A stretch of DNA of 64,000 nucleotides, taken from Phytohabitans maris. Lineage in GTDB: Bacteria; Actinomycetota; Actinomycetes; Mycobacteriales; Micromonosporaceae. The translations under genes were made by a program, and so were the position numbers. The DNA lies in the NCBI RefSeq assembly GCF_031085175.1, contig NZ_JAVHUY010000029.1, forward strand, positions 62,001-126,000, given 5' to 3'. Numbering within the stretch: the first letter of the stretch is position 1; each line of letters opens with the position of its first letter. Positions 3,805 to 17,151 of this stretch are shown in pieces. The notes under the pieces were generated by a model. That model did no database searches and was not told where the DNA came from. It saw only the letters and a list, made by a program, of their open reading frames with translations.

Positions 3805-3965
3805 CTCCTCCGTAACACCAAATTAACGGGCGATCACAAGCGGCGGCGCCGACACCACCGGTACGCGGCTTTGCGGTTGATCGCTGCCACCCGTGGTGGC
3901 TTCCGTGGGCGCACGTCGCGGCCCCATCCACGCATTGATCCCAACTCGGGGAAGGCGGCTAGGAA

Positions 3966-3979
3966 TGTTAGCGTTCACA
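3966..3979. promoter_or_regulatory. LacI-type operator upstream of GH43 gene (site 2)
   Basis: TGTTAGCGTTCACA has a perfect left half (TGTTAGCG) and a right half with two mismatches to the palindrome. It is 40 bp upstream of the GH43 start codon and shares the central CG and outer TGT/ACA with site 1. Confidence 0.6.
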
Positions 3980-4018
3980 TTTTCTCGCTCCGGCGCAGAT
4001 CCCCATGAAAGGAACCCG

Positions 4019-5083
4019 ATGTTCGTGAAACGCAGGCTGAAAACGGCGCGACGGCTGCTCGTCGTCGCCGCCGTCGCCGTGCTCGCCTCGGTCCCGGGCG
4101 TAGCCATCCCCGCCGCGCCGGCGCTCGCGGCGCCCGGACCGTCGTTCACCAACCCCCTCGTCGGCACGCCCAACAGCGCGGATCCCTCCATCGTGTACAG
4201 CGGCGGCAACTGGTACTACATGGCCACGACCTGGTCCTCGAGAATCGTCATGCGCACATCGTCCACTATGGCCGGTCTGAAGACCGCGCCGGAGCGGACG
4301 GTGTTCACCCTGACCGCCGGACCTGGCTGCTGCACGATGTGGGCACCGGATCTGCAATGGATCAACAACCGGTGGTACATCTACTTCTCGGCAGAGCCGT
4401 CGCCGGGCCAGGGCCAGCGCCGGACCGGCGTGCTGGAGAGCTCCGGCACCGACCCGCTCGGGCCGTACACCTATCGGGGCATTCTCAACCTGGAACCCAA
4501 CGGTGGGTGGGCGATCGACGGCAGCGTGGTCCGGTTCAACGGCTGGGTGAACCACTTCGTCTACTCCGCGTTCCGCGGCGGGGAGCAAGGGCTGTTCATC
4601 GCCCCGATGTCGTCGCCGGTACAGGTTTCCCGCAACGGGGTTCGGATCTCGTCGCCGACGCTGTCGTGGGAGCGGCAGGGCGGTGCGGTCAACGAGGGCC
4701 CGTACGCCGTGTACAACGGCGGGAGGACGTTCCTGACGTACTCGGCCAGTTCCTGCAACACGCCTGACTACAAGCTTGGCACGCTGACCTGGACCGGTGG
4801 CGACCCGATGTCGGCCAGTTCGTGGACGAAGAGGTCGACCCCCATCTTCCAGCGCAGTGACGCCAACGGCGTCTACGGCCCGGGCCACGCCTCCTTCGTC
4901 AGGTCGCCGGACGGGGCCGAGACGTGGATTGTCTACCACGCCAACTCCTCCACCAGCCAGGGCTGCGGCACCACCCGCACGACGCGGGCCCAGAAGATCG
5001 GCTGGAACTCCGACGGCACGCCCAACCCGGGCGTCCCGGTGCGCACCGGGACCTCGATCGCCGGCCCCTCCGGCGACTCGTGA
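4019..5083 (+). CDS. Secreted glycoside hydrolase family 43 (arabinofuranosidase/arabinanase-like)
   Basis: A 354-residue exported enzyme. Residues 1-37 form a long signal peptide with a charged KRRLKTARR start and an Ala-rich cleavage region. The rest is one five-bladed propeller of GH43. The three catalytic carboxylates can be placed: Asp55 in DPSIVY (general base), Asp167 in AIDGSVV (pKa modulator) and Glu226 in NEGPYAVY (general acid). GH43 members remove arabinose or xylose from arabinan and arabinoxylan; the sequence around APDLQWINNRWYIYFSA suggests an exo-acting alpha-L-arabinofuranosidase type (possibly subfamily 26), which is less certain. There is no carbohydrate-binding module, unlike the other glycanases here. 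Two LacI-type operators precede it and a GC hairpin follows it. Confidence 0.85.
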   Translation: MFVKRRLKTARRLLVVAAVAVLASVPGVAIPAAPALAAPGPSFTNPLVGTPNSADPSIVYSGGNWYYMATTWSSRIVMRTSSTMAGLKTAPERTVFTLTAGPGCCTMWAPDLQWINNRWYIYFSAEPSPGQGQRRTGVLESSGTDPLGPYTYRGILNLEPNGGWAIDGSVVRFNGWVNHFVYSAFRGGEQGLFIAPMSSPVQVSRNGVRISSPTLSWERQGGAVNEGPYAVYNGGRTFLTYSASSCNTPDYKLGTLTWTGGDPMSASSWTKRSTPIFQRSDANGVYGPGHASFVRSPDGAETWIVYHANSSTSQGCGTTRTTRAQKIGWNSDGTPNPGVPVRTGTSIAGPSGDS

Positions 5084-5363: not shown

Positions 5364-6365
5364 TCAGCCCGCCTCGACGAGGTCGGTGGCGACGGTGAGG
5401 TCGGTGATGAGCACGTTGACCCGCTTGCCGAGCAGCGCGCCGCGGATCGCGGTGGTCTTTTCCGGACCGCCGGCGACGGCGATCCGGCGCGGGATGGCCT
5501 GTAGCTCTTCCGGGCTGACGCCGAGGATGCGGTCGTCCAGGGGAGTGTTGACCGCTTGGCCGGCCGCGTCGAAGAAGCGGAGGCAGACGTCGCCGACGGC
5601 GCCGCCGTTGTTGAGGGCGTCGCGGTCGGCCTCGGCGATGGCGTTGCCGCTCTCGCGCAGCAGGGGGGAGGGCTCGAGGCTGCCGATGCCGACGAGCGCC
5701 ATGGTCAGTTTCGGCCAGGTCTGGACGACCTCGGCGACGGTCGGGTCGCGCAGGAGGGCGTCGCGGGCCGCCGGGGTGCCGAGCATGGCGGGTGCGGGCA
5801 TGAAGAGCGGGTCGGCCCCGGTCATGCTGGCGAACCGGCTGATCAGGTTGTTGGCCCGGATCTGGACGCGCGGGTTGCCGACGCCGCCGACGATCTGGAC
5901 GACCTGGTCGACGACGCGGTTGCGGGACGGTCGCATCCGCTCGACCGCGGCCAGGAGGCTGGCGCTCCAGGAGGAGATGCCGACGCTGTCGCCGCCGGTG
6001 AGGGTGGTCTCCAGGTAGTCGGCCGCGGCGGCGCCGAGGGCGGGGAGCAGGTCGTCCACCCCGGCGGCGTCCACCACGACGGCCTCGCGCAGGTCGAACC
6101 GCTTCTCCAGGGCCTCTTCCAGGTCGGTGTGCACGCCGGGGGGCAGGGAGACCGTGGTGCGCACGATGCCGATCTCGGTGGCGCGCTTGAGCAGGCGGGA
6201 CACGCGCGCCTGGGAGATGTGCAGCTCCTCGGCGATGGTGGTCTGCCGCAGGTTGCGCTCGTGGTACATGCGCGCGACCTTGGCGACGAGCCGGATCTGG
6301 TCGTCGCTGTACGCCGGTCGTCGGGTCGTGCCGACGTTGTCGTCTTCGACCACGGCTATGGTCAC
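5364..6365 (-). CDS. SorC/DeoR-type sugar-binding transcriptional regulator
   Basis: A 333-residue regulator of the SorC family. Residues about 20-65 form the N-terminal helix-turn-helix (YSDDQIRLVAKVARMY, then TTIAEELHISQARVSRLLKRA). The remainder is the sugar-phosphate-binding domain with the family motifs GDSVGISSWSASL, VQIVGGVG and TDLTVA near the C-terminus. It is the last gene of the minus-strand sugar operon, 104 bp after the transketolase C-subunit gene. SorC proteins usually respond to a phosphorylated pathway intermediate and control their own operon; the yGAAT-N4-ATTCr palindromes in this locus are the obvious candidate sites. The start is GTG at 6365. Confidence 0.88.
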   Translation of the reverse strand: MTIAVVEDDNVGTTRRPAYSDDQIRLVAKVARMYHERNLRQTTIAEELHISQARVSRLLKRATEIGIVRTTVSLPPGVHTDLEEALEKRFDLREAVVVDAAGVDDLLPALGAAAADYLETTLTGGDSVGISSWSASLLAAVERMRPSRNRVVDQVVQIVGGVGNPRVQIRANNLISRFASMTGADPLFMPAPAMLGTPAARDALLRDPTVAEVVQTWPKLTMALVGIGSLEPSPLLRESGNAIAEADRDALNNGGAVGDVCLRFFDAAGQAVNTPLDDRILGVSPEELQAIPRRIAVAGGPEKTTAIRGALLGKRVNVLITDLTVATDLVEAG

Positions 6366-6469: not shown

Positions 6470-7423
6470 TCAGCGGCCCAGCGCGAGGCGGGCCGCCTCG
6501 ACGATGCCGGCGGCGGAGATGTGGAAGTGCTCCAGCAGCCACCGCGCCGAGCCGGTGGGCGCGAACACGTCGGGTACGCCGACGAACCGGACCGGTACCG
6601 GATGGTGCTGGACCACCGTCTCGGCGACCGCCCCGCCGAGCCCGCCGGTGGTGAGCGCCTCCTCGACGGTGACGATGGCGGCGGTCTCGCGCGCGGCGGC
6701 CACGACGGCCTCGACGTCGAGCGGCTTCACGGTGGGCATCGACAGCACGCGGGCGGTGATGCCGAGGTGGGACAGCTCGTGCGCGGCGTCCAGGGCGGGC
6801 GCGACCACGGTGCCGTTGGCGACGATGGTGACGTCGTCGCCGTCGCGCAGGGTGGTGGCCCGGCCGGGGGCGAACCGGTACCCGGCCGGGTTGACGTCGG
6901 GCACGCCCATGCGGCTGACCCGGACGAAGACCGGCCCGGAGTGGTCGGCCGCCCACCGGATGGCCTGCGCGGTCTCGGCCGGGTCGCTGGGCACGACCAC
7001 CGTGAGGTTGGGGATCACCCGCAGCCAGGCCAGGTCCTCGATGGAGTGGTGGGTGGGGCCGAGCTCGCCGTACGCCATGCCGGGGCTCATGCCGCAGAGC
7101 GTGATGTTGTGGTTGGAGTACGCGGCGTCGACCTTGATCTGCTCCATGGCGCGGGCGGTCAGGAAGCACGACGCGGCCGACACGAAGGGGATCTTGCCGC
7201 CGTTGGCGAGGCCGGCGGCGACACCGACCATGTCCTGCTCGGCGATGCCGACGTTGATCAGCCGGTCCGGGAAGCGGCGCTTGAACTCGCCGAGCTTGCT
7301 GGAGCCGACCGAGTCGTTGACGACCACGACCACCCGCGGGTCGGCCTGGGCCAGCTCGATCAGCGTCGCGGCGTACGCGTCGCGGCAGTCGTGCAGGACG
7401 GGTTGGGTGGTGCTGGTGGTCAC
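6470..7423 (-). CDS. Transketolase C-terminal subunit (split transketolase, pyrimidine-binding half)
   Basis: A 317-residue protein corresponding to the pyrimidine-binding (Pyr) domain and C-terminal domain of transketolase. Key sequence: GIAEQDMVGVAAGLA, which carries the Glu that activates thiamine diphosphate, then HHSIEDLAWLRVIPNL and the C-terminal Rossmann-like region ending EALTTGGLGGAVAE. It must pair with the N-terminal subunit encoded just upstream; the two genes overlap at GTGA (7420-7423), so translation is coupled. Split transketolases serve central metabolism or special pathways such as apulose-4-phosphate cleavage or the sulfoquinovose transketolase route. The kinase and isomerase in this operon favour a phosphorylated ketopentose substrate. 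Confidence 0.88.
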   Translation of the reverse strand: MTTSTTQPVLHDCRDAYAATLIELAQADPRVVVVVNDSVGSSKLGEFKRRFPDRLINVGIAEQDMVGVAAGLANGGKIPFVSAASCFLTARAMEQIKVDAAYSNHNITLCGMSPGMAYGELGPTHHSIEDLAWLRVIPNLTVVVPSDPAETAQAIRWAADHSGPVFVRVSRMGVPDVNPAGYRFAPGRATTLRDGDDVTIVANGTVVAPALDAAHELSHLGITARVLSMPTVKPLDVEAVVAAARETAAIVTVEEALTTGGLGGAVAETVVQHHPVPVRFVGVPDVFAPTGSARWLLEHFHISAAGIVEAARLALGR

Positions 7424-8310
7424 GGGGTCTCCAGTTCGGCGAGCGCGGCGGCCACTTCGTCGGTGTTGGGCACCTTGTGGTGCCAGGCGACTTCGTCGCT
7501 CATGAAGGAGATCGGGTGGCCCTTGACGGTGTGCGCGATGACGAAGGTGGGGGTGCCGGGTACCGGCGGGCGGGTGAAGGTGTCCAGCAGCGCGCCGTGG
7601 TCGTGCCCGTCGACCTCGACCACGTGCCAGCCGAACGCGCGTGCCTTGTCGGCCAGCGGGTCGAGGTCGTTGGTCTCGGCGACCCGGGCGCCCTGCTGCA
7701 GCCGGTTGCGGTCGACCACGGCGGTGAGGTGCTCCAGCCGGTGGTGGGCGGCGGTCATCAGCGCCTCCCAGTTGGAGCCCTCCTGCAGTTCGCCGTCGCC
7801 GAGCACGACGAAGGTCCGCCGGCGCGAGCCGTCGAGCTTGCCGGCCAGCGCGGTGCCGACCGCGACCGGCAGGCCGTGCCCGAGCGGGCCGGTGTTGGCC
7901 TCCACGCCCGGCACCTTCGTGCGGTCCGGGTGCCCGTTGAGCTTGGACAGCGGCCGCATGAACGTGTCGAGCGCGGCCGGGTCGAGCAGGCCGGCGGCGG
8001 CGAGGGTGGCGTAGAGGGCACCGGCCGCGTGCCCCTTGGAGAGGATCAGCCGGTCCCGCTCGGGGTCGTCGAGCCGGCCCGCGCTGATCTCCAGCACGTG
8101 CAGGTAGAGCGTGGCGAGGATGTCGATGACGGAGAACTCGCCGCCGACGTGCCCCAGCCCGGCCGAGTGGATCATGGCGATGTCGCGGCGGCGGATCAGC
8201 CGGGCGCCCTCGCGGATGTGCGCGACGACGGCCTCCCGCCCGGCCTCCGCGCCGATCCGGCCGAGAACGGGCAGCGCCGTGCCGGGCGTGGTGATCGGGG
8301 CCGCGCTCAC
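7420..8310 (-). CDS. Transketolase N-terminal subunit (split transketolase, diphosphate-binding half)
   Basis: A 296-residue protein covering the thiamine-diphosphate diphosphate-binding domain. Visible motifs are the substrate-His region [42 protein letters not shown] and the magnesium/diphosphate motif [14 protein letters not shown] chose GTG at 8310 because its GTGA overlaps the TGA stop of the upstream isomerase gene; a longer reading frame upstream is low-complexity and antisense-like. It forms one active transketolase with the downstream C-subunit. Within the operon it would transfer a two-carbon unit from the phosphorylated ketose made by the kinase and isomerase. Confidence 0.9.
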
Positions 8311-9299
8311 CGGTCCACCGCCATCGAGCGCAGCAGCGCGTCCTGGACCAGCCGCTGCGCGGTCAGCGCGTCCTGCCGCTCCTGGGCCGCCTGCAGCGCC
8401 GGGATGTCGAGCAGGTCCAGCCCCCGGTGTACGGCCTTGAGGAACCGGATGGAGAGCCGGGCCGCCTCGACGCTGTCCTCGCGGAATGGGAACTGGTCGA
8501 GCTGCCACACCCCGTTCCAGTCATTGATCTTGAGGGTGTAGAAGAACTCGAAGATCTCGGTGAGGTGGACGGTGCCCACCACCAGGTCGTCGTCCCAGCC
8601 GCGCAGGTTGTCGTTGACGTCCATGCCGAACAGGCGGCCGTGGTCGATGAGCAGCTGGGCGGCGTCGGCGGGCGACTCGCCGCCGTAGAGGGAGTGGCCG
8701 AAGTCGAGCAGCACGCCGACGTTGTCCAGGCCGATCTGCTGGATGCCCAGCAGCGCGCGGGCGGCCGAGTCCCAGGTCATGTGCACCCGCGGCTCGCGTG
8801 GCTTGTACTCGATCGCGAAGCGCAGGTCGGGGTGGGCGGCGGCGAGCTCGCGCATGCCGTCGACGGCGAGCGACCACAGCCGCCGGTGGTTGACCTGGAA
8901 CGGGTAGTCCCAGCCGTCCTGGCCGGGCCAGATCTTGACGTAGTCGGCGCCGAGCTCGCGGACCACGCCGGCGGCCTCGTGCATCAGGTCGAGGGCGGCG
9001 GCGCGGGCGGCCGGGTCGGGGTTGGTGAACGCGCCCTTGGCGAACCGCCGCAGGTAGATCTCCGGGGTGATGCCGATCGCGCTGAGGCCGGCGGCGGCGA
9101 GCGCGTCCTTGACCTCGGACAGGCCGACACCGGGGGTGAACGGGTAGTTCAGGTCGACCACGGAGAGCTCGCCGACCTCGCCGGCGCGGGCGATCGCCTC
9201 CAGCGTGGTGACGGCGGGACCGTAGCCGTCCACGGCGTACCGGTCGACGTAGCTGGCGAAGTGCCACAGTCCGGCACCGAACCTCGGTTCGCTTGACAT
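8307..9299 (-). CDS. Sugar isomerase/epimerase, xylose-isomerase-like TIM barrel
   Basis: A 330-residue AP-endonuclease-2/xylose-isomerase-like TIM barrel. Candidate metal ligands lie in [11 protein letters not shown], in [12 protein letters not shown] (Asp and His), in MDVNDN and in the Glu of HLTEIFEF. These enzymes interconvert aldoses and ketoses or epimerise ketoses. Its place between transporter and split transketolase suggests it converts the imported sugar to the ketose that the kinase phosphorylates; in the known D-apiose route this step is D-apiose to D-apulose. The assignment to apiose is inference. Its start is preceded by a third copy of the operon palindrome and by a hairpin that follows the binding-protein gene. 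Confidence 0.8.
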
Positions 9300-9393: not shown

Positions 9394-11541
<2,148 letters not shown>

Positions 11542-11545
<4 letters not shown>

Positions 11546-13098
11546 GCGGTGGCTCCGTTCGCGGGTGGGGTCGGCTCGGCTTCGCCGGAGACCGCCATGA
11601 GCTGTTCCTTGCTGGTCGTGGCCGGGTCGAGCAGCTGCATCACCCGGCCGCGGTACATCACCACCACGTGGGTGGCCGCGTTCAGCGCCTCGCTCAGCTC
11701 CGAGGTGGCGAACAGCACCGCGACGCCGCGCCGGGCCTGCTCGGCCATCAGCGCGAAGATGTCGGCCTTGGCGCCGACGTCGATGCCGCGGGTCGGCTCG
11801 TCCAGCAGCAGCGCGCGGGGCTCGGTGAGCAGCGCCTTGCCGATGACGACCTTCTGCTGGTTGCCGCCGGAGAGCGAGGTGATCGGCGCGGTCGGGCCGG
11901 CCGCCTTGACCGTGACGTCGGCGCTGACCCGGTCGATCGCCGCGGACTCGCGCCGGCCGGCGACGAACGGGCCGAACAGGAACCGCCCGATCGAGGCCAG
12001 CGAGAGGTTGTCGCCGACCGACATGGTCTGCACCAGGCCGTCGCGCTGGCGGTCCTCGGGCACCAGCACCAGGCCGAGGCCGATCCGCTCGCCGACGCTC
12101 GCCCCGGTGACGTCCCGGCCGTCGACCCGGACGGTACCGGCGCGTGCCGGCAGGCGGCCGGCGAGCGCCTCGAGCAGCTCGGTGCGGCCGGCGCCCATGA
12201 GGCCGTACAGGCAGACGATCTGTCCGGCCCGGACGGTGAGGCTGAGCTCCTCGACGGCGAGCCGGGCCGGGTTGGTCGGGTCGACCACGCTCAGCCCCTC
12301 GATCTCCAGGACCGGGTCGCCGGCCGGCAGCTCCAGCCGCGGGTACAGGTCGTCGGGGCTGCGCCCGACCATGTTCGCCACGATCCAGGCCAGGTCGACC
12401 TCGGCGGCCCGCCCGGTGGCGACCAGCGCGCCGTCGCGCAGCACCGCCACGTCGTCGGCGATCTCCAGCGCCTCCTCCAGGTGGTGGGAGATGTAGACGA
12501 CCGCCACGCCGTTGCCGGTCAGCTCGTGGATCACCCGGAAGAGCACCTCGACCTCGGAGGCGCTCAGCGCGGAGGTGGGCTCGTCCATGATGAGCACCCG
12601 GGCGTCCAACGAGATGGCCCGCGCGATCTCGACGATCTGCTGCTGGCCCAGGCGCAGGTCGCCGACGAGGGCGTCCGGGTCGATCGGCTCCTCCAGCCGC
12701 TCCAGCAGCGCGGCCGTCGCCTGCCGCTGGGCGCGCGAGCTGACCAGGCCACCGCGGCCGGTGCGCTCGCGCCCGAGGAAGACGTTGTCGGTGACGCTGA
12801 GGTTGGGGCAGAGGTTGAGCTCCTGGTGGATGATCGCCACGCCGTGGGCGACCGCGTCCGCCGCCGATCGGAACGCGACCGGCTCGCCGTCCAGCTCGAT
12901 CGTGCCGGTGGAGGGCTGCTCGACGCCGGCCAGGATCTTCATCAGCGTGGACTTGCCCGCGCCGTTCTCGCCGAACAGGGCGGTGACCGCCCCGGCGCGG
13001 ACGCTGAAGTCGACGCCCTTGAGCGCGTGCGTGCCGCCGTACACCTTCGCGACCGCGCTGGCCCGCATGACCACCGGCCGGCCCGCGGCCGGGCTCAT
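11542..13098 (-). CDS. Sugar ABC transporter ATPase with two nucleotide-binding domains (RbsA type)
   Basis: A 518-residue duplicated ATPase of the CUT2 class. The first domain has Walker A GENGAGKST, a degenerate signature (LRLGQQQIVEIA) and Walker B VLIMDEPTSAL. The second has the altered Walker A GLMGAGRTE, normal for RbsA-like proteins, then LSGGNQQKVVIGKAL and ALLLDEPTRGIDVGAK. It powers the permease encoded next. It starts with ATG overlapping the stop of the DUF2291 gene (13095-13098). Confidence 0.93.
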
Positions 13099-13760
13099 GG
13101 CGCGATCTCCAGGCGGATCGGGGTGACCTGGATCAGCTTCGGGTTGCCGCCGTACGTGAACGCGCCGACGAACGACACCTGGCTGCCCTCCGCGCCGGCG
13201 GCGTCCACTCCGGCCAGTACCTTCGCCTTGACCTGGTTGTTGAGCTCGGTCGACGCGTCGGCGTACTCGAGCTGGTTGAGGAACTGGTCGAACGTGATCA
13301 GCCCGGTCGCGTCGCGCAGGGCGGTGCCGTTGATCGCCGGCCCGATCTGGAGGCTGACCCGCACGCCCTCGGGCAGGCCGGCGATCTCCAGCGGCAGCAG
13401 CGTGCCGGAGACCTTCCCGGCCACGCCGGTGCCGGAGGCGGCGAACGCGTACCGGGCGTTCGGGCCGTCCCGGTGCCCGTACCGCTCACCGGCGGCCTGC
13501 GGGTCGGCGGCGATCGCGGTCAGCAGCTCGGCGATCGCGGTCGCGTTCTTCTCGATCGCGGGCACGACCTCCGAGTCGTACCGCTCGGTGGCGTACTCGG
13601 TGGCGTCGAAACGGTGGCCGCCCGCGGACGCCGCCTCGTCCGTGTCGACCACCTTGGTGGTCGCGGCGATCGCGACCGCCAGCGCCAGCAGCAGCACGCC
13701 GGCGATCAGCGACGGGCGTCGCAGCAGGGTCACGGCGGCGGGTCGGGCTCGTTGGGTCAT
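13095..13760 (-). CDS. DUF2291 family membrane-anchored protein of a sugar transport operon
   Basis: A 221-residue protein with one N-terminal membrane segment (residues about 15-35) and an extracytoplasmic domain. It matches the DUF2291 pattern as I know it: FDATEYATERYDSEVVPAIEKN, then GERYG, a small beta domain (QIGPAINGTALRDATGLITF) and QFLNQLEYADASTELNNQ. DUF2291 genes are repeatedly found inside CUT2 sugar ABC operons, and the protein is thought to be an accessory, but its function is unknown. It sits between the kinase and ATPase genes and is translationally coupled to the latter. Confidence 0.82.
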   Translation of the reverse strand: MTQRARPAAVTLLRRPSLIAGVLLLALAVAIAATTKVVDTDEAASAGGHRFDATEYATERYDSEVVPAIEKNATAIAELLTAIAADPQAAGERYGHRDGPNARYAFAASGTGVAGKVSGTLLPLEIAGLPEGVRVSLQIGPAINGTALRDATGLITFDQFLNQLEYADASTELNNQVKAKVLAGVDAAGAEGSQVSFVGAFTYGGNPKLIQVTPIRLEIAP

Positions 13761-13787: not shown

Positions 13788-15296
13788 TCAGCGGCCGGTG
13801 CCGGGGGATTCGGCCAAGGGGGTGCGGACCCGCGACCGGGCGACCGCACCGGACCAGGCCGCCCGCCGGGCGGCCCGCACGCCGGCGGCGAGCGCCGGCT
13901 CGACCAGCGTCCCAGCGGCCGCCGGCGCCGCCTCAACGCCGGGGGAACCGGCCGGAACGGGCGAAGCGGTCAGGCCCAGGGCCTGCCGGGCGAGCGTGGC
14001 CGCGCCGAGCGCCGACGCGTCCGGCAGGTCGGTCACCCGCACCGGCCGGCCGAGCAGGTCGGCCTGGATCCGCATCAGCCGCCGGCTGGCCGTGGCCGCG
14101 CCGTCCGCGTGCAGCACCTCGATGGCGGCCCCGGGGCTCGCCTCGATCGCCTCGACCACGTCGGCGACCTGGTGCGCGACGCTCTCCAGCGCGGCCAGCG
14201 CCAGGTGCGCGCGCTCGGTGCCGCCGGTGACGCCGGTGAGCAGGCCGGTCGCGGACCGGTCCCAGTACGGCGCGCCGAGCCCGGAGAAGGCCGGCACGAA
14301 ATGCACGCCGCCGGTGTCGTCCACCGCCTCGGCGGCCTTGTCCAGATGGGTGGCGTCGGGCAGGTCGAGGGTGCGGGCCATCCACGCCAGCGCGGCGCCG
14401 GAGGCGATGATGTTGCCCTCCCGGGCGTACGTCGGCCGGCCGGTCAGCCAGGCGAGCGTCGTGGCGACCCCGGCCGGCGGGTCGTCCAGCCGGGCCACCG
14501 GCGCCATCACCGACGAACCCGTGCCGTAGGTCGACTTGCCGCTCCCGGGCAGCCGGCAGCCGTGCTGGTACAGGGCGGCGTGCGAGTCGGCCAGCACGGC
14601 GGCCACCGGCAGCGCGGGCGGCAGGAACCCCAGGTCGGCGGTGACCCCGAAACCGGCGTCCGAGGCGCGGACCTCCGGCAGGACGGCGCGCGGCACGCCG
14701 AACGCGTCGAGCAGCTCGTCGTGCCAGTCCAGCGTGGCCAGGTCGAACAGCAGCGTGCGGGAGGCGTTGCCGGCCTCGCAGGCGAACACCGCCCCGCCGG
14801 TCAGCCGCCACACCAGCCAGGCGTCGACCGTACCGAGCGCGACGCCGGCCCCGCCCGGCCCCGCCGCCCCCAGCAGCCAGGCCATCTTGGGCGCGGAGAA
14901 CATCGGGTCCAGCGGCAGGCCGGTGCGCCGGCGTACGGCCCCGCCGAGCCCCGCCCTCGCCAGCTCGTCGCACCGGTCGGCGGCCCGGGCGTCCTGCCAG
15001 CCCAGCACCGGACCGATCGGCCGGCCGGTGCCCCGGTCCCAGGCCACGACCGACTCCCGCTGGTTCGACACGGCGACCGCCGCCGGCGTCACGCCTGCGG
15101 CGGCGGCCAGGCAGTCGCGCACGGCCAGCTCGACGCTGCGCCAGATGTCGGCGGCGTCCTGCTCGACCCAGCCGGGACGCGGAAACGCGACGCCGACCGG
15201 GGCGGAGCCGCGCGCCAGGACCGTACCGCCGGCGTCGACGAGCAGCGCCTTGGTGTTCGTCGTGCCCTGGTCGACCGACAAGACCGCGTCCATCAC
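13788..15296 (-). CDS. FGGY-family carbohydrate kinase
   Basis: A 502-residue two-domain FGGY kinase, first gene of the operon. The N-terminal ATPase-fold motif LSVDQGTTNTKALLVD, the substrate region VAVSNQRESVVAWD and the catalytic-base region VLADSHAALYQHG followed by KSTYGTGSSVM are visible, as is the FGGY C-domain signature around LHADGAATASRRLMRIQADLL. It is glycerol-kinase-like, so it would phosphorylate a small polyol or ketose. In a D-apiose pathway it would make D-apulose 4-phosphate; xylulose or erythrulose kinase activity is the main alternative. GTG at 15296 and ATG at 15293 are both possible starts. The last 70 residues are Ala/Pro-rich and may be disordered. Confidence 0.88.
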   Translation of the reverse strand: MMDAVLSVDQGTTNTKALLVDAGGTVLARGSAPVGVAFPRPGWVEQDAADIWRSVELAVRDCLAAAAGVTPAAVAVSNQRESVVAWDRGTGRPIGPVLGWQDARAADRCDELARAGLGGAVRRRTGLPLDPMFSAPKMAWLLGAAGPGGAGVALGTVDAWLVWRLTGGAVFACEAGNASRTLLFDLATLDWHDELLDAFGVPRAVLPEVRASDAGFGVTADLGFLPPALPVAAVLADSHAALYQHGCRLPGSGKSTYGTGSSVMAPVARLDDPPAGVATTLAWLTGRPTYAREGNIIASGAALAWMARTLDLPDATHLDKAAEAVDDTGGVHFVPAFSGLGAPYWDRSATGLLTGVTGGTERAHLALAALESVAHQVADVVEAIEASPGAAIEVLHADGAATASRRLMRIQADLLGRPVRVTDLPDASALGAATLARQALGLTASPVPAGSPGVEAAPAAAGTLVEPALAAGVRAARRAAWSGAVARSRVRTPLAESPGTGR

Positions 15297-15307: not shown

Positions 15308-15321
15308 CGAATATCCATTCG
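15308..15321. promoter_or_regulatory. Candidate SorC operator at kinase promoter
   Basis: CGAATATCCATTCG has perfect 5-base arms around a 4-base spacer. It lies 12 bp upstream of the kinase start, a position suited to repression of the operon. Confidence 0.5.
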
Positions 15322-15499: not shown

Positions 15500-15515
15500 G
15501 TGAATTTCTATTCAC
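15500..15515. promoter_or_regulatory. Candidate SorC operator at DUF1593 promoter
   Basis: GTGAATTTCTATTCAC has perfect 6-base arms around a 4-base spacer, the same architecture as the site at 15308. It lies 46 bp upstream of the DUF1593 start, in the shared 265-bp divergent region, so both transcription units are probably controlled by one regulator. Confidence 0.55.
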
Positions 15516-15561: not shown

Positions 15562-17151
15562 ATGAGCGGGCAAGTACCGGTGGCCGGGTCCGGCCGCTGG
15601 AAGAGGTACGCGAGAGTCTGCCTGTCGATGGCCGTGGTACTCGCGCTGCCGGCGACGGTCGGCGCCGCCCAGGCCAGCGCCGAGCCGCGGGCGACCGACC
15701 GCGGAGGCTCGCACGGCGACGGCGACCGGCGCGACAAGCCACGCACGATCGTCACCACTGACATCGAGACCGACGACTACAACTCGGTGATCCGCTACCT
15801 GCTCTACACCAACGAGGTCGACACGGAGGCGATCGTCTACACGAGCTCCCGGTTCCACTTCGCCGGCGACGGCAAGGGCACGCCGTTCTTCCTGCCCGGC
15901 CGCGAGTACACGGAGCCGGTCACCTCCTGGCGGTGGACCGGCACCGAGCACATCCAGAACCTCATCGCCGAGTACGCCAAGGGGTACCGCAACCTGCTCA
16001 AGCACGACCGCGGCTACCCGACGCCCCAGCACCTGCTCAGCCTCGTGAAGGTCGGCAACATCAACTTCGAGGGCGACATGGCCGCCGACACCGAAGGCTC
16101 GGACGCCATCAAGAAGGTCCTGCTGGACAACAAGGGCGGGCCGGTCTACCTGCAGGTGTGGGGCGGCAGCAACACCATCGCCCGCGCGCTGCTCTCCATC
16201 GAGGAGCAGTACCGCGACACGCCACAGTGGACGAAGATCTACGAGAAGGTCTCCGCGAAGGCCGTCATCACCATGCAGGGCAAGCAGGACACCACCTACG
16301 ACCAGTACATCAGCGTCAAGTGGCCGAAGATCCTGACCACCAACGTCGGCTCCGGCACCTGGGGCTTCTACGGCAAGAACTCCACCAAGCCGGTGGACCC
16401 CGAGGCGCTCAAGTACTTCGACGGCCGGTGGATCGCGGCGAACATTCTGGAGAACGGCCCGCTCGGCGACAAGTACCGGGTCTGGGGCGACAAGAAGGCC
16501 CTCGCCGGCGACCCGCTCGACATCTTCGGCGACCTGACCAACACCAGCGGCTGGCTGCCGCCGCGGGAACGGTTCGACTTCCTCTCCGAGGGCGACAACC
16601 CCGCCTTCATCTACCTGTTCGACACCGGGCTGCGCAGCCTGGAGGACTGGACGTACGGCGGCTGGGGACACCGGGTCGTGCAGAGCACGACCACCCCGAA
16701 CTACTGGGTCTCCGGGCCGGCGGAGAAGAACAAGGCCGGCGTGGAGGTCCGCGGGTACGGCAGCGGCCGGTGGGCCGAGGCCGAACAGCTCGACTTCGCC
16801 GCCCGGCTGGGCTGGATGAGCGCCGACAGCTACGCCGACGCCAACCACCACCCGGTCGTCAGCGTCAAGAGCGGCGTGGACGTCAAGGCCCGGCCGGGCA
16901 GCCGGATCACCGTCAGCGACGCCGTCCGCGACCCCGACGGCGACCGGGTCGGCGTCCGGTGGTGGCAGTACCGCGAAGCCGACACCTACGCCGGCGAGGT
17001 GGCCATCGCCGACAGCACCGCGCTCCGCACCGCCGTCACCATCCCGGCCGACGCCAAGCCGGGGGAGACCGTGCACCTGATCCTGGAGGCCACGGACACC
17101 GGCAAGCCGGCGCTCACCCGGTACCAGCGGGTCATCGTCCACATCGTCTGA
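15562..17151 (+). CDS. Secreted DUF1593 (nucleoside-hydrolase-like) protein
   Basis: A 529-residue exported protein. A signal peptide spans residues 1-40 (RWKRYAR, hydrophobic core, AQASA). The mature domain is the nucleoside-hydrolase-like DUF1593 fold: TTDIETDDYNS carries the Asp cluster (Asp67, Asp71, Asp72) that corresponds to the calcium-binding DxDxxxDD of nucleoside hydrolases. A C-terminal Ig-like beta domain starts near residue 430 (NHHPVVSVKSG, later DPDGDRVGVRWW). The catalytic activity of DUF1593 is not established as far as I know. Nucleoside hydrolases cleave furanosides, and this gene is divergent from a pentose operon with which it shares an operator, so it may release that operon's sugar outside the cell. 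A strong AAAAGGAGAAG ribosome-binding site precedes ATG 15562. Confidence 0.85.
   Translation: MSGQVPVAGSGRWKRYARVCLSMAVVLALPATVGAAQASAEPRATDRGGSHGDGDRRDKPRTIVTTDIETDDYNSVIRYLLYTNEVDTEAIVYTSSRFHFAGDGKGTPFFLPGREYTEPVTSWRWTGTEHIQNLIAEYAKGYRNLLKHDRGYPTPQHLLSLVKVGNINFEGDMAADTEGSDAIKKVLLDNKGGPVYLQVWGGSNTIARALLSIEEQYRDTPQWTKIYEKVSAKAVITMQGKQDTTYDQYISVKWPKILTTNVGSGTWGFYGKNSTKPVDPEALKYFDGRWIAANILENGPLGDKYRVWGDKKALAGDPLDIFGDLTNTSGWLPPRERFDFLSEGDNPAFIYLFDTGLRSLEDWTYGGWGHRVVQSTTTPNYWVSGPAEKNKAGVEVRGYGSGRWAEAEQLDFAARLGWMSADSYADANHHPVVSVKSGVDVKARPGSRITVSDAVRDPDGDRVGVRWWQYREADTYAGEVAIADSTALRTAVTIPADAKPGETVHLILEATDTGKPALTRYQRVIVHIV

Follow-up and report, generated by a model that had tools for sequence, protein, structure and literature searches.

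The DUF1593 gene and its product

The window considered here, a stretch of 64,000 nucleotides from the Phytohabitans maris genome (contig NZ_JAVHUY010000029.1), carries a gene for a 529-residue protein of the DUF1593 (PF07632) family. Facing away from it are nine genes of the opposite direction, in the order kinase, DUF2291 protein, ATP-binding cassette (ABC) ATPase, permease, binding lipoprotein, isomerase, two transketolase halves and SorC-type regulator, which together resemble an operon for the use of D-apiose. The DUF1593 protein almost certainly belongs to the apiose regulon, and it is probably a secreted, Ca2+-dependent exo-beta-D-apiofuranosidase of that regulon, whose catalytic activity we infer from sequence.

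The open reading frame (ORF) of the DUF1593 gene begins with ATG and encodes a full-length protein. The product matches PF07632 (Sde182_NH-like) over residues 61-369 (E 2.1e-60; 205 bits, curated cut-off 26.8) and PF21027 (Sde0182_C) over residues 456-528 (E 2.5e-25; 89.3 bits, curated cut-off 27). These are its only Pfam matches at E <=0.001; PF01156, the nucleoside hydrolase family, is not matched at that threshold, and neither PF13204 nor any carbohydrate-binding module (CBM) is found by Pfam. The N-terminus, with the residues KRYAR, a hydrophobic stretch and an AQASA end, was judged by eye to be a Sec-type signal peptide, and the protein is apparently exported. The initial annotation had described an exported DUF1593 protein divergent from the kinase gene, and the full-length ORF, its two domains and the apparent signal peptide agree with that description. 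A gene 87% identical to it is found in Plantactinospora mayteni.

An AlphaFold model of the protein (mean predicted local distance difference test score 70) is matched by Foldseek to 2yhg, the structure of Sde_0182 from Saccharophagus degradans, at E 1.1e-32 and a template modelling score of 0.83 by target length. In profile searches of the PDB, 2yhg is also the sole significant match to DUF1593. Sde_0182 is built of both PF07632 and PF21027 (E 1.5e-66 and 2.4e-138 in two profile searches), and alignments place an Asp cluster and an EGD motif in common between the two proteins; Sde_0182 has carbohydrate-binding domains, whereas the window protein has none by Pfam. Likeness to the nucleoside hydrolases (PF01156; RihC, IU-NH) is one of fold, by way of 2yhg, and seemingly also of two Asp residues of the fingerprint and one late in the sequence. 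Unlike those enzymes, the window protein carries the motif TxDxExDD, a Gly before the last Asp, an apparent export signal and an additional C-terminal domain. Identity as a plain nucleoside hydrolase was rejected on the lack of a profile match, the Gly before the last Asp, export and membership of the regulon.

An operator-like palindrome shared by DUF1593 genes and the operon

The palindromes GAATATCCATTC and GAATTTCTATTC, which lie before the kinase and DUF1593 genes, respectively, are the only two sites of the form GAATN4ATTC in the window, where 0.05 would be expected; a palindrome of one type in front of both genes had been noted at the outset. Genome-wide (9.87 Mb) there are 10 such sites, compared with 2 for a reversed control pattern, and four of the 10 lie in promoters, one that of the kinase and the others those of the genome's three DUF1593 genes. 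Two of these DUF1593 promoters are remote from the operon, one 27 kb away (C22:50813) and the other on another contig (C69:3208). The first spacer base is A or T in these four sites and C or G in the other six; four further places in this genome resemble the operator with one mismatch. In P. mayteni, a GAATN4ATTC-type site precedes all three DUF1593 genes. Since sites stand before remote DUF1593 genes, unlinked copies also carry the operator type, both in the window's own genome and in Plantactinospora, with weaker sites in genome G026 and in Acrocarpospora. The SorC-type regulator encoded in the operon presumably binds these sites.

The survey was widened to 27 actinomycete DUF1593 genes (G364 omitted), for each of which the best match to TGAATWNNWATTCA was taken from the 700 bp that precede the domain. 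Seventeen of the 19 genes classed as promoter-proximal, a class assigned by reading gene order with the result already in view, have a site with at most two mismatches: the match is exact in 5, while 6 have one mismatch and another 6 have two. At L042, a locus of G047, a one-mismatch site lies just beyond 700 bp because of an N-terminal extension, which brings the total to 18 of 19. The lone promoter-proximal gene without a site is that of G377, a genome without the isomerase. No site at two or fewer mismatches precedes the eight other genes, which were read as downstream members of arrays. At L106, L107 and L109 the upstream stretch is common to the kinase, and the site is therefore not assignable to one gene. 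As background, 4 of 281 hand-picked 700-bp segments away from such promoters contain a match at two mismatches and none at fewer; with true sites left in, the count is 26 of 441.

The divergent apiose-type operon

By homology, the isomerase, the kinase and both transketolase genes that mark a D-apiose operon occur together in the window (Table 1). The binding lipoprotein is 60% identical to 4ry0, the Rhizobium etli protein RHE_PF00037, and 5ibq is presumably the same R. etli protein with D-apiose bound. The ORF listed for the AptA-like half overlaps the isomerase gene, so its real start probably lies further downstream. A D-apiose cluster of apsI, aplK, aptA and aptB is named in PMC13001218, where it is credited to Carter et al. 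2018. The window has the isomerase, kinase and two transketolase genes in common with that cluster, as described there, and in the window an apparently secreted DUF1593 protein stands under the same type of operator. The regulator gene at the end of the operon is closely followed, at 3893-5083, by a gene for a protein of the glycoside hydrolase (GH) 43 family, with no exact GAATN4ATTC operator in front of it.

Table 1. Features of the DUF1593 locus and divergent operon, numbered from the first nucleotide of the window
Feature	Positions	Strand	Remarks
SorC/DeoR-type sugar-binding regulator	5364..6365	-	PF04198 E 4.5e-60; proposed binder of GAATN4ATTC sites
Split transketolase C-terminal half, AptB-like	6470..7423	-	PF02779/PF02780
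Split transketolase N-terminal half, AptA-like	7420..8508	-	PF00456; split transketolase 6yak E 1e-66
TIM-barrel isomerase, proposed D-apiose isomerase ApsI	8307..9299	-	PF01261; 3ktc E 3.1e-182
Sugar-binding lipoprotein	9394..10380	-	Nearest solved relatives 5ibq E 8.2e-106, 4ry0 E 1.7e-105
CUT2-type sugar ABC importer, permease	10394..11545	-	
CUT2-type sugar ABC importer, ATPase	11542..13098	-	
DUF2291 predicted lipoprotein	13095..13760	-	Pfam match
FGGY kinase, proposed apulose kinase AplK	13788..15296	-	PF00370/PF02782; nearest solved relatives are glycerol kinases
Operator-like palindrome GAATATCCATTC	15309..15320	.	Kinase / operon promoter
Operator-like palindrome GAATTTCTATTC	15502..15513	.	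~50 bp upstream of DUF1593 start codon
DUF1593 / PF07632 + PF21027 protein, 529 residues	15562..17151	+	Apparent signal peptide; proposed secreted exo-beta-D-apiofuranosidase

Co-occurrence with the apiose isomerase

In an order-level sample of 249 genomes, with the isomerase threshold set at E <=1e-40, a DUF1593 match occurs in 6 genomes and the isomerase in 8. Genome G114 was rejected as a carrier, its protein match having an E of 9.7e-4 with nothing found by the PF07632 profile. All five confirmed carriers (G000, G003, G026, G047 and G087) have the isomerase, which resides in the same cluster as DUF1593 in four of them and on another contig in G026 (hypergeometric p 7e-9, or 2e-7 without G000; kinship ignored). 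The class-level sample comprised 296 genomes, G000 being part of both samples; here PF07632 is present in 6, the isomerase in 14 and both in 4, and the two are linked in all 4 (p 4.5e-5, or 6e-4 without G000; kinship again ignored). The class-level carriers without the isomerase are G377 and G364, the latter counted on PF07632 matches that consist solely of short pieces in two frames. In a separate scan of seven loci, both actinomycete loci are linked (Plantactinospora, and Acrocarpospora of the Streptosporangiales), and the other five, some of them short, contain no apiose gene.

DUF1593 and the isomerase are thus linked in nine genomes (G000, G003, G047, G087, G354, G400, G425, P. mayteni at L004 and Acrocarpospora at L005), which take the co-occurrence beyond the window's genome and into other genera and orders of Actinomycetes. 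The kinase (cut by the end of the stretch in G087) and a CUT2 importer are present at all nine loci, and a SorC-type regulator at eight, being absent from the G087 stretch. At L005 and in G047, DUF1593 and the isomerase share one direction, the former leading into the latter. Acrocarpospora has two DUF1593 genes followed by isomerase, transketolase, kinase and importer in a single direction, and G047 has one block made up of five DUF1593 genes (four in the operon direction), a pectate lyase with CBM2 and the operon; one of the DUF1593 proteins of G047 bears its own CBM6/CBM35.

PF13204 as a possible substitute

PF13204, named Apiosidase by Pfam, is presumed here to cover family GH140, to which we take BT1012 of Bacteroides thetaiotaomicron to belong. 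The reaction of these apiosidases is the same as that proposed for the window DUF1593 protein; BT1012 is described as a beta-apiosidase in PMC7939467. Sought in 19 genomes, PF13204 was found in 6. It is present in none of the nine DUF1593-linked genomes versus four of seven isomerase-positive genomes lacking DUF1593 (Fisher p 0.019), a comparison that covers 7 of the 13 genomes of the latter kind and excludes G290, G374, G401, G410, G447 and G496. In three of these four genomes it lies within ~6 kb of the isomerase. G026 has both DUF1593 and PF13204, neither adjoining the operon, and PF13204 is also present in G364.

The three isomerase-linked PF13204 proteins (L115, L116 and L117) have the architecture DUF5060-PF13204-DUF5605. 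By eye, no signal peptide is apparent in them and they look cytoplasmic, whereas the DUF1593 protein looks exported. A CUT2 importer was not found in the three PF13204-linked stretches, one of which is a contig of only 12.6 kb. Genes for an importer of the oligopeptide type and a GH28-like protein are present at the G440 locus, a GH2 gene at that of G380, and genes for a GH3 protein and a major facilitator superfamily transporter at that of G439. This pattern suggests two feeding modes for one pathway, namely extracellular cleavage with import of apiose, or import of the apioside with intracellular cleavage. With PF13204 at some loci that lack DUF1593, and with the operator on unlinked paralogs, the tie between DUF1593 and the pentose operon reaches further than the initial annotation had proposed.

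Conserved residues and a proposed mechanism

Conservation was assessed in an alignment of 53 DUF1593 sequences, which includes an L106 copy excised from a longer ORF as well as an L109 copy defined by its tblastn span, and from which a fused-frame ORF, a short fragment, two fragments from G364, three duplicates and two truncated ORFs were left out. Asp residues D67, D71, D72 and D345 and the glycine G344 are invariant in all 53. Position 69 is E or D, E343 is kept in 49 and D243 in 48. The Asp cluster, whose loss in close relatives would have told against a furanosidase, is therefore retained throughout the aligned family. With respect to the window protein itself, the proposed cluster of Asp residues is present at these four positions, but the first Asp of the fingerprint is replaced by Thr, giving TxDxExDD in place of DxDxxxDD, and across the 53 members this position is T, L, M or S. 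Four divergent members have Met at position 343, and one of them is encoded at the G087 operon; since that member lies in an apiose locus, the acid residue or the role of the protein may differ in this branch of PF07632 (L035:7000-8622, L132, L134 and L135).

In nucleoside hydrolases, as PMC8910321 describes them, Ca is held by two Asp residues of the DxDxxxDD fingerprint and one late Asp, with O2' and O3' of the ribose bound on the Ca, and a His, Trp or Cys stands just before the last Ca-binding Asp. D345 was equated with the late Asp by motif, without a significant alignment. Apiofuranose, like ribose, has a cis-2,3-diol, while the 2,3-diol of arabinofuranose is trans; the same Ca grip would therefore fit apiofuranose. 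In the proposed mechanism, the secreted DUF1593 protein would be exo-acting on terminal apiofuranosyl residues. D67, D72 and D345 would hold a Ca ion that grips the cis-2,3-diol of the terminal residue, and an activated water molecule would attack C1. Because the cleavage of an O-glycoside needs an acid, E343 or D243 is proposed for this role. The released apiose would be captured by the binding lipoprotein and imported via the CUT2 transporter. ApsI would then isomerize it, the kinase would phosphorylate the product, and the two-part transketolase would carry out the final split. The 1-5 paralogs per genome would serve different apiosyl linkages, such as those of apiogalacturonan, rhamnogalacturonan II (RG-II) and apiosyl glycosides.

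We also infer that apiose, rather than another furanose, is the sugar on which the enzyme acts. The operator common to DUF1593 and the apiose operon narrows an open substrate question to one named substrate. If it held for the PF07632 family at large, this assignment would supply a missing extracellular step in the breakdown of apiogalacturonan from duckweed and seagrass, of RG-II and of apiosyl flavonoids. Apiose is described as bridging RG-II via boron and as occurring in the pectins of duckweed and seagrass. Given these occurrences, the enzyme would matter for the use of plant biomass and for gut and marine carbon cycling, and also for the trimming of apiosyl flavonoids.

Relation to previous work

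A furanose link of DUF1593 appears to be known already, and the apiose link appears to be new within the open-licence literature. To our knowledge, no O-glycosidase on the nucleoside-hydrolase fold has been known before. Open-licence papers yielded nothing under the terms "DUF1593" or "apulose", and none linking the domain to apiose was found among them. For Aspergillus niger, a 2017 study (PMC5294722) takes the structure of the domain in a fungal relative, printed as DUF159, to suggest furanose activity, with none shown there.

Weighing the alternatives

Several observations count against an apiofuranosidase. Gly occupies the residue preceding the last Ca-binding Asp, a position that is catalytic in nucleoside hydrolases. 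E. coli RihC has no significant match to the DUF1593 family profile, and among the 50 Foldseek matches listed, which include 2yhg, there is no classical nucleoside hydrolase. Sde_0182 is reported as inactive on nucleosides and proposed to be a furanose-interacting module (PMC8910321). Within the actinomycetes, G377 has DUF1593 in the absence of the isomerase, and in three genomes (G012, G036 and G045, with loci L036, L037 and L039) the operon is present while DUF1593 and PF13204 are both missing, which could reflect either scavenging of free apiose or a third type of enzyme. Outside them, none of the 16 non-actinomycete genomes searched has the isomerase at E 1e-25; in 15 of these PF07632 exceeds the cut-off, and G523 matches it in part. 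No apiose genes are present in the Bacteroidota stretches examined, and among 29 plasmid records that match the isomerase, 11 of them below 60% identity, 28 have no DUF1593 on the same record. The non-actinomycete and plasmid counts, like the inactivity of Sde_0182 on nucleosides, tell against an apiose role for the family as a whole. On a Croceibacterium plasmid that carries both genes, kinase and transketolase were not found in a 21-kb stretch. An Escherichia apiose cluster described in PMC13001218 is without apsI, so a genome that lacks the isomerase may still use apiose.

A rival explanation is that DUF1593 is a non-catalytic protein that binds or anchors furanose, capturing apiose-bearing glycans outside the cell for a separate enzyme to cut. 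Sde_0182 has carbohydrate-binding domains, CBM2 among them (PMC2386152), and keeps its Ca in addition to its inactivity on nucleosides (PMC8910321), and the family is described by Pfam as "cellulose-binding". Nucleosides, however, are not the substrate predicted here, and the presence of several paralogs per regulon, one with a CBM6/CBM35 of its own, better fits catalytic domains, as do four Asp residues conserved in 53 of 53 members and E343 in 49. The nine linked genomes, moreover, contain no PF13204 protein to do the cutting, although this could fall to an apiosidase from some further family. We regard the binding-protein explanation as unlikely.

Less probable still is that DUF1593 is a glycosidase of the same regulon that cleaves a different furanosyl bond or a neighboring one, for example an arabinofuranosyl bond, and thereby unmasks apiose. 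RG-II contains several furanosides, and genes of the GH127 beta-L-arabinofuranosidase type lie near the G087 locus (one) and near a Spirosoma plasmid copy of DUF1593 (two). Such a role would nonetheless leave the nine linked genomes without an apiosidase of a known type, and the Ca/cis-diol geometry would better suit apiose or ribose than the trans-diol of arabinofuranose. That the operon handles another pentose or a tetrose, with the secreted protein as a furanosidase for that sugar, is suggested by the kinase being closest to glycerol kinases and by the solved binding-protein relatives being named ribose-binding, but is very improbable given the isomerase match to 3ktc (E 3e-182), the PF13204 genes that adjoin this set of genes in three further genomes, and the correspondence of isomerase, kinase and two transketolase genes to the apiose cluster in PMC13001218.

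An exo-beta-D-apiofuranosidase thus remains our preferred assignment for the window protein, and the initial annotation's idea that it could free apiose or another furanose outside the cell for the operon to import is supported. The broader proposal that PF07632 constitutes a new glycoside hydrolase family, comprising secreted Ca-dependent beta-D-apiofuranosidases on a nucleoside-hydrolase fold among the actinomycete members and at least some of the remaining bacterial and fungal ones, is evenly balanced between holding and failing.

DUF1593 in other phyla and on plasmids

In a midpoint-rooted tree of DUF1593, some deep supports of which are low (e.g., 0.68), apiose-linked members occur in each main branch, the Sde182-like branch included. 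To the latter belongs the copy on the alphaproteobacterial Croceibacterium plasmid, where DUF1593 begins 32 bp after the isomerase. This is the one plasmid record in which the isomerase adjoins DUF1593 among the eight examined, of nine with DUF1593; Pantoea sp. At-9b has the two genes on different plasmids.

Among the Bacteroidota, PF07632 is present in 12 of 158 genomes. Their neighborhoods (52 neighbor proteins at 10 loci) reveal no recurrent partner family, with at most two members in each of the 25 families listed out of 75. One neighbor family is a PF01261 TIM barrel, but a search there with the window isomerase is empty at E 1e-10. Ten neighbors of the window-type Bacteroidota copies include a sulfatase, a DUF6090 protein and an ion channel, and form no pattern.

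On the Selenomonas plasmid pSRC2 (L143:2547-11835), genes for a rhamnosidase, an MBL-fold protein, a beta-glucoside phosphotransferase system, DUF1593 and GH1 run in one direction. The set looks like a flavonoid-glycoside utilization operon, into which apiosyl-glucosides would fit. Two plasmids, of Catenovulum (L148) and Croceicoccus (L146), show DUF1593 beside GH115 genes, and not far from altronate dehydratase and uxaC; both settings hint at uronic-acid-rich glycans.

Minor observations concern the importers and the isomerase. In G012, G036 and G045, a CUT2 importer is part of the operon and a second CUT2-like system adjoins it. Riboflavin genes (RibD, RibBA) adjoin apiose-isomerase-like clusters at L119:6371-9275 (G496) and L035:11383-12807 (G087), and isomerase-like genes of 46-47% identity are present in four genomes of 1.4-1.5 Mb.
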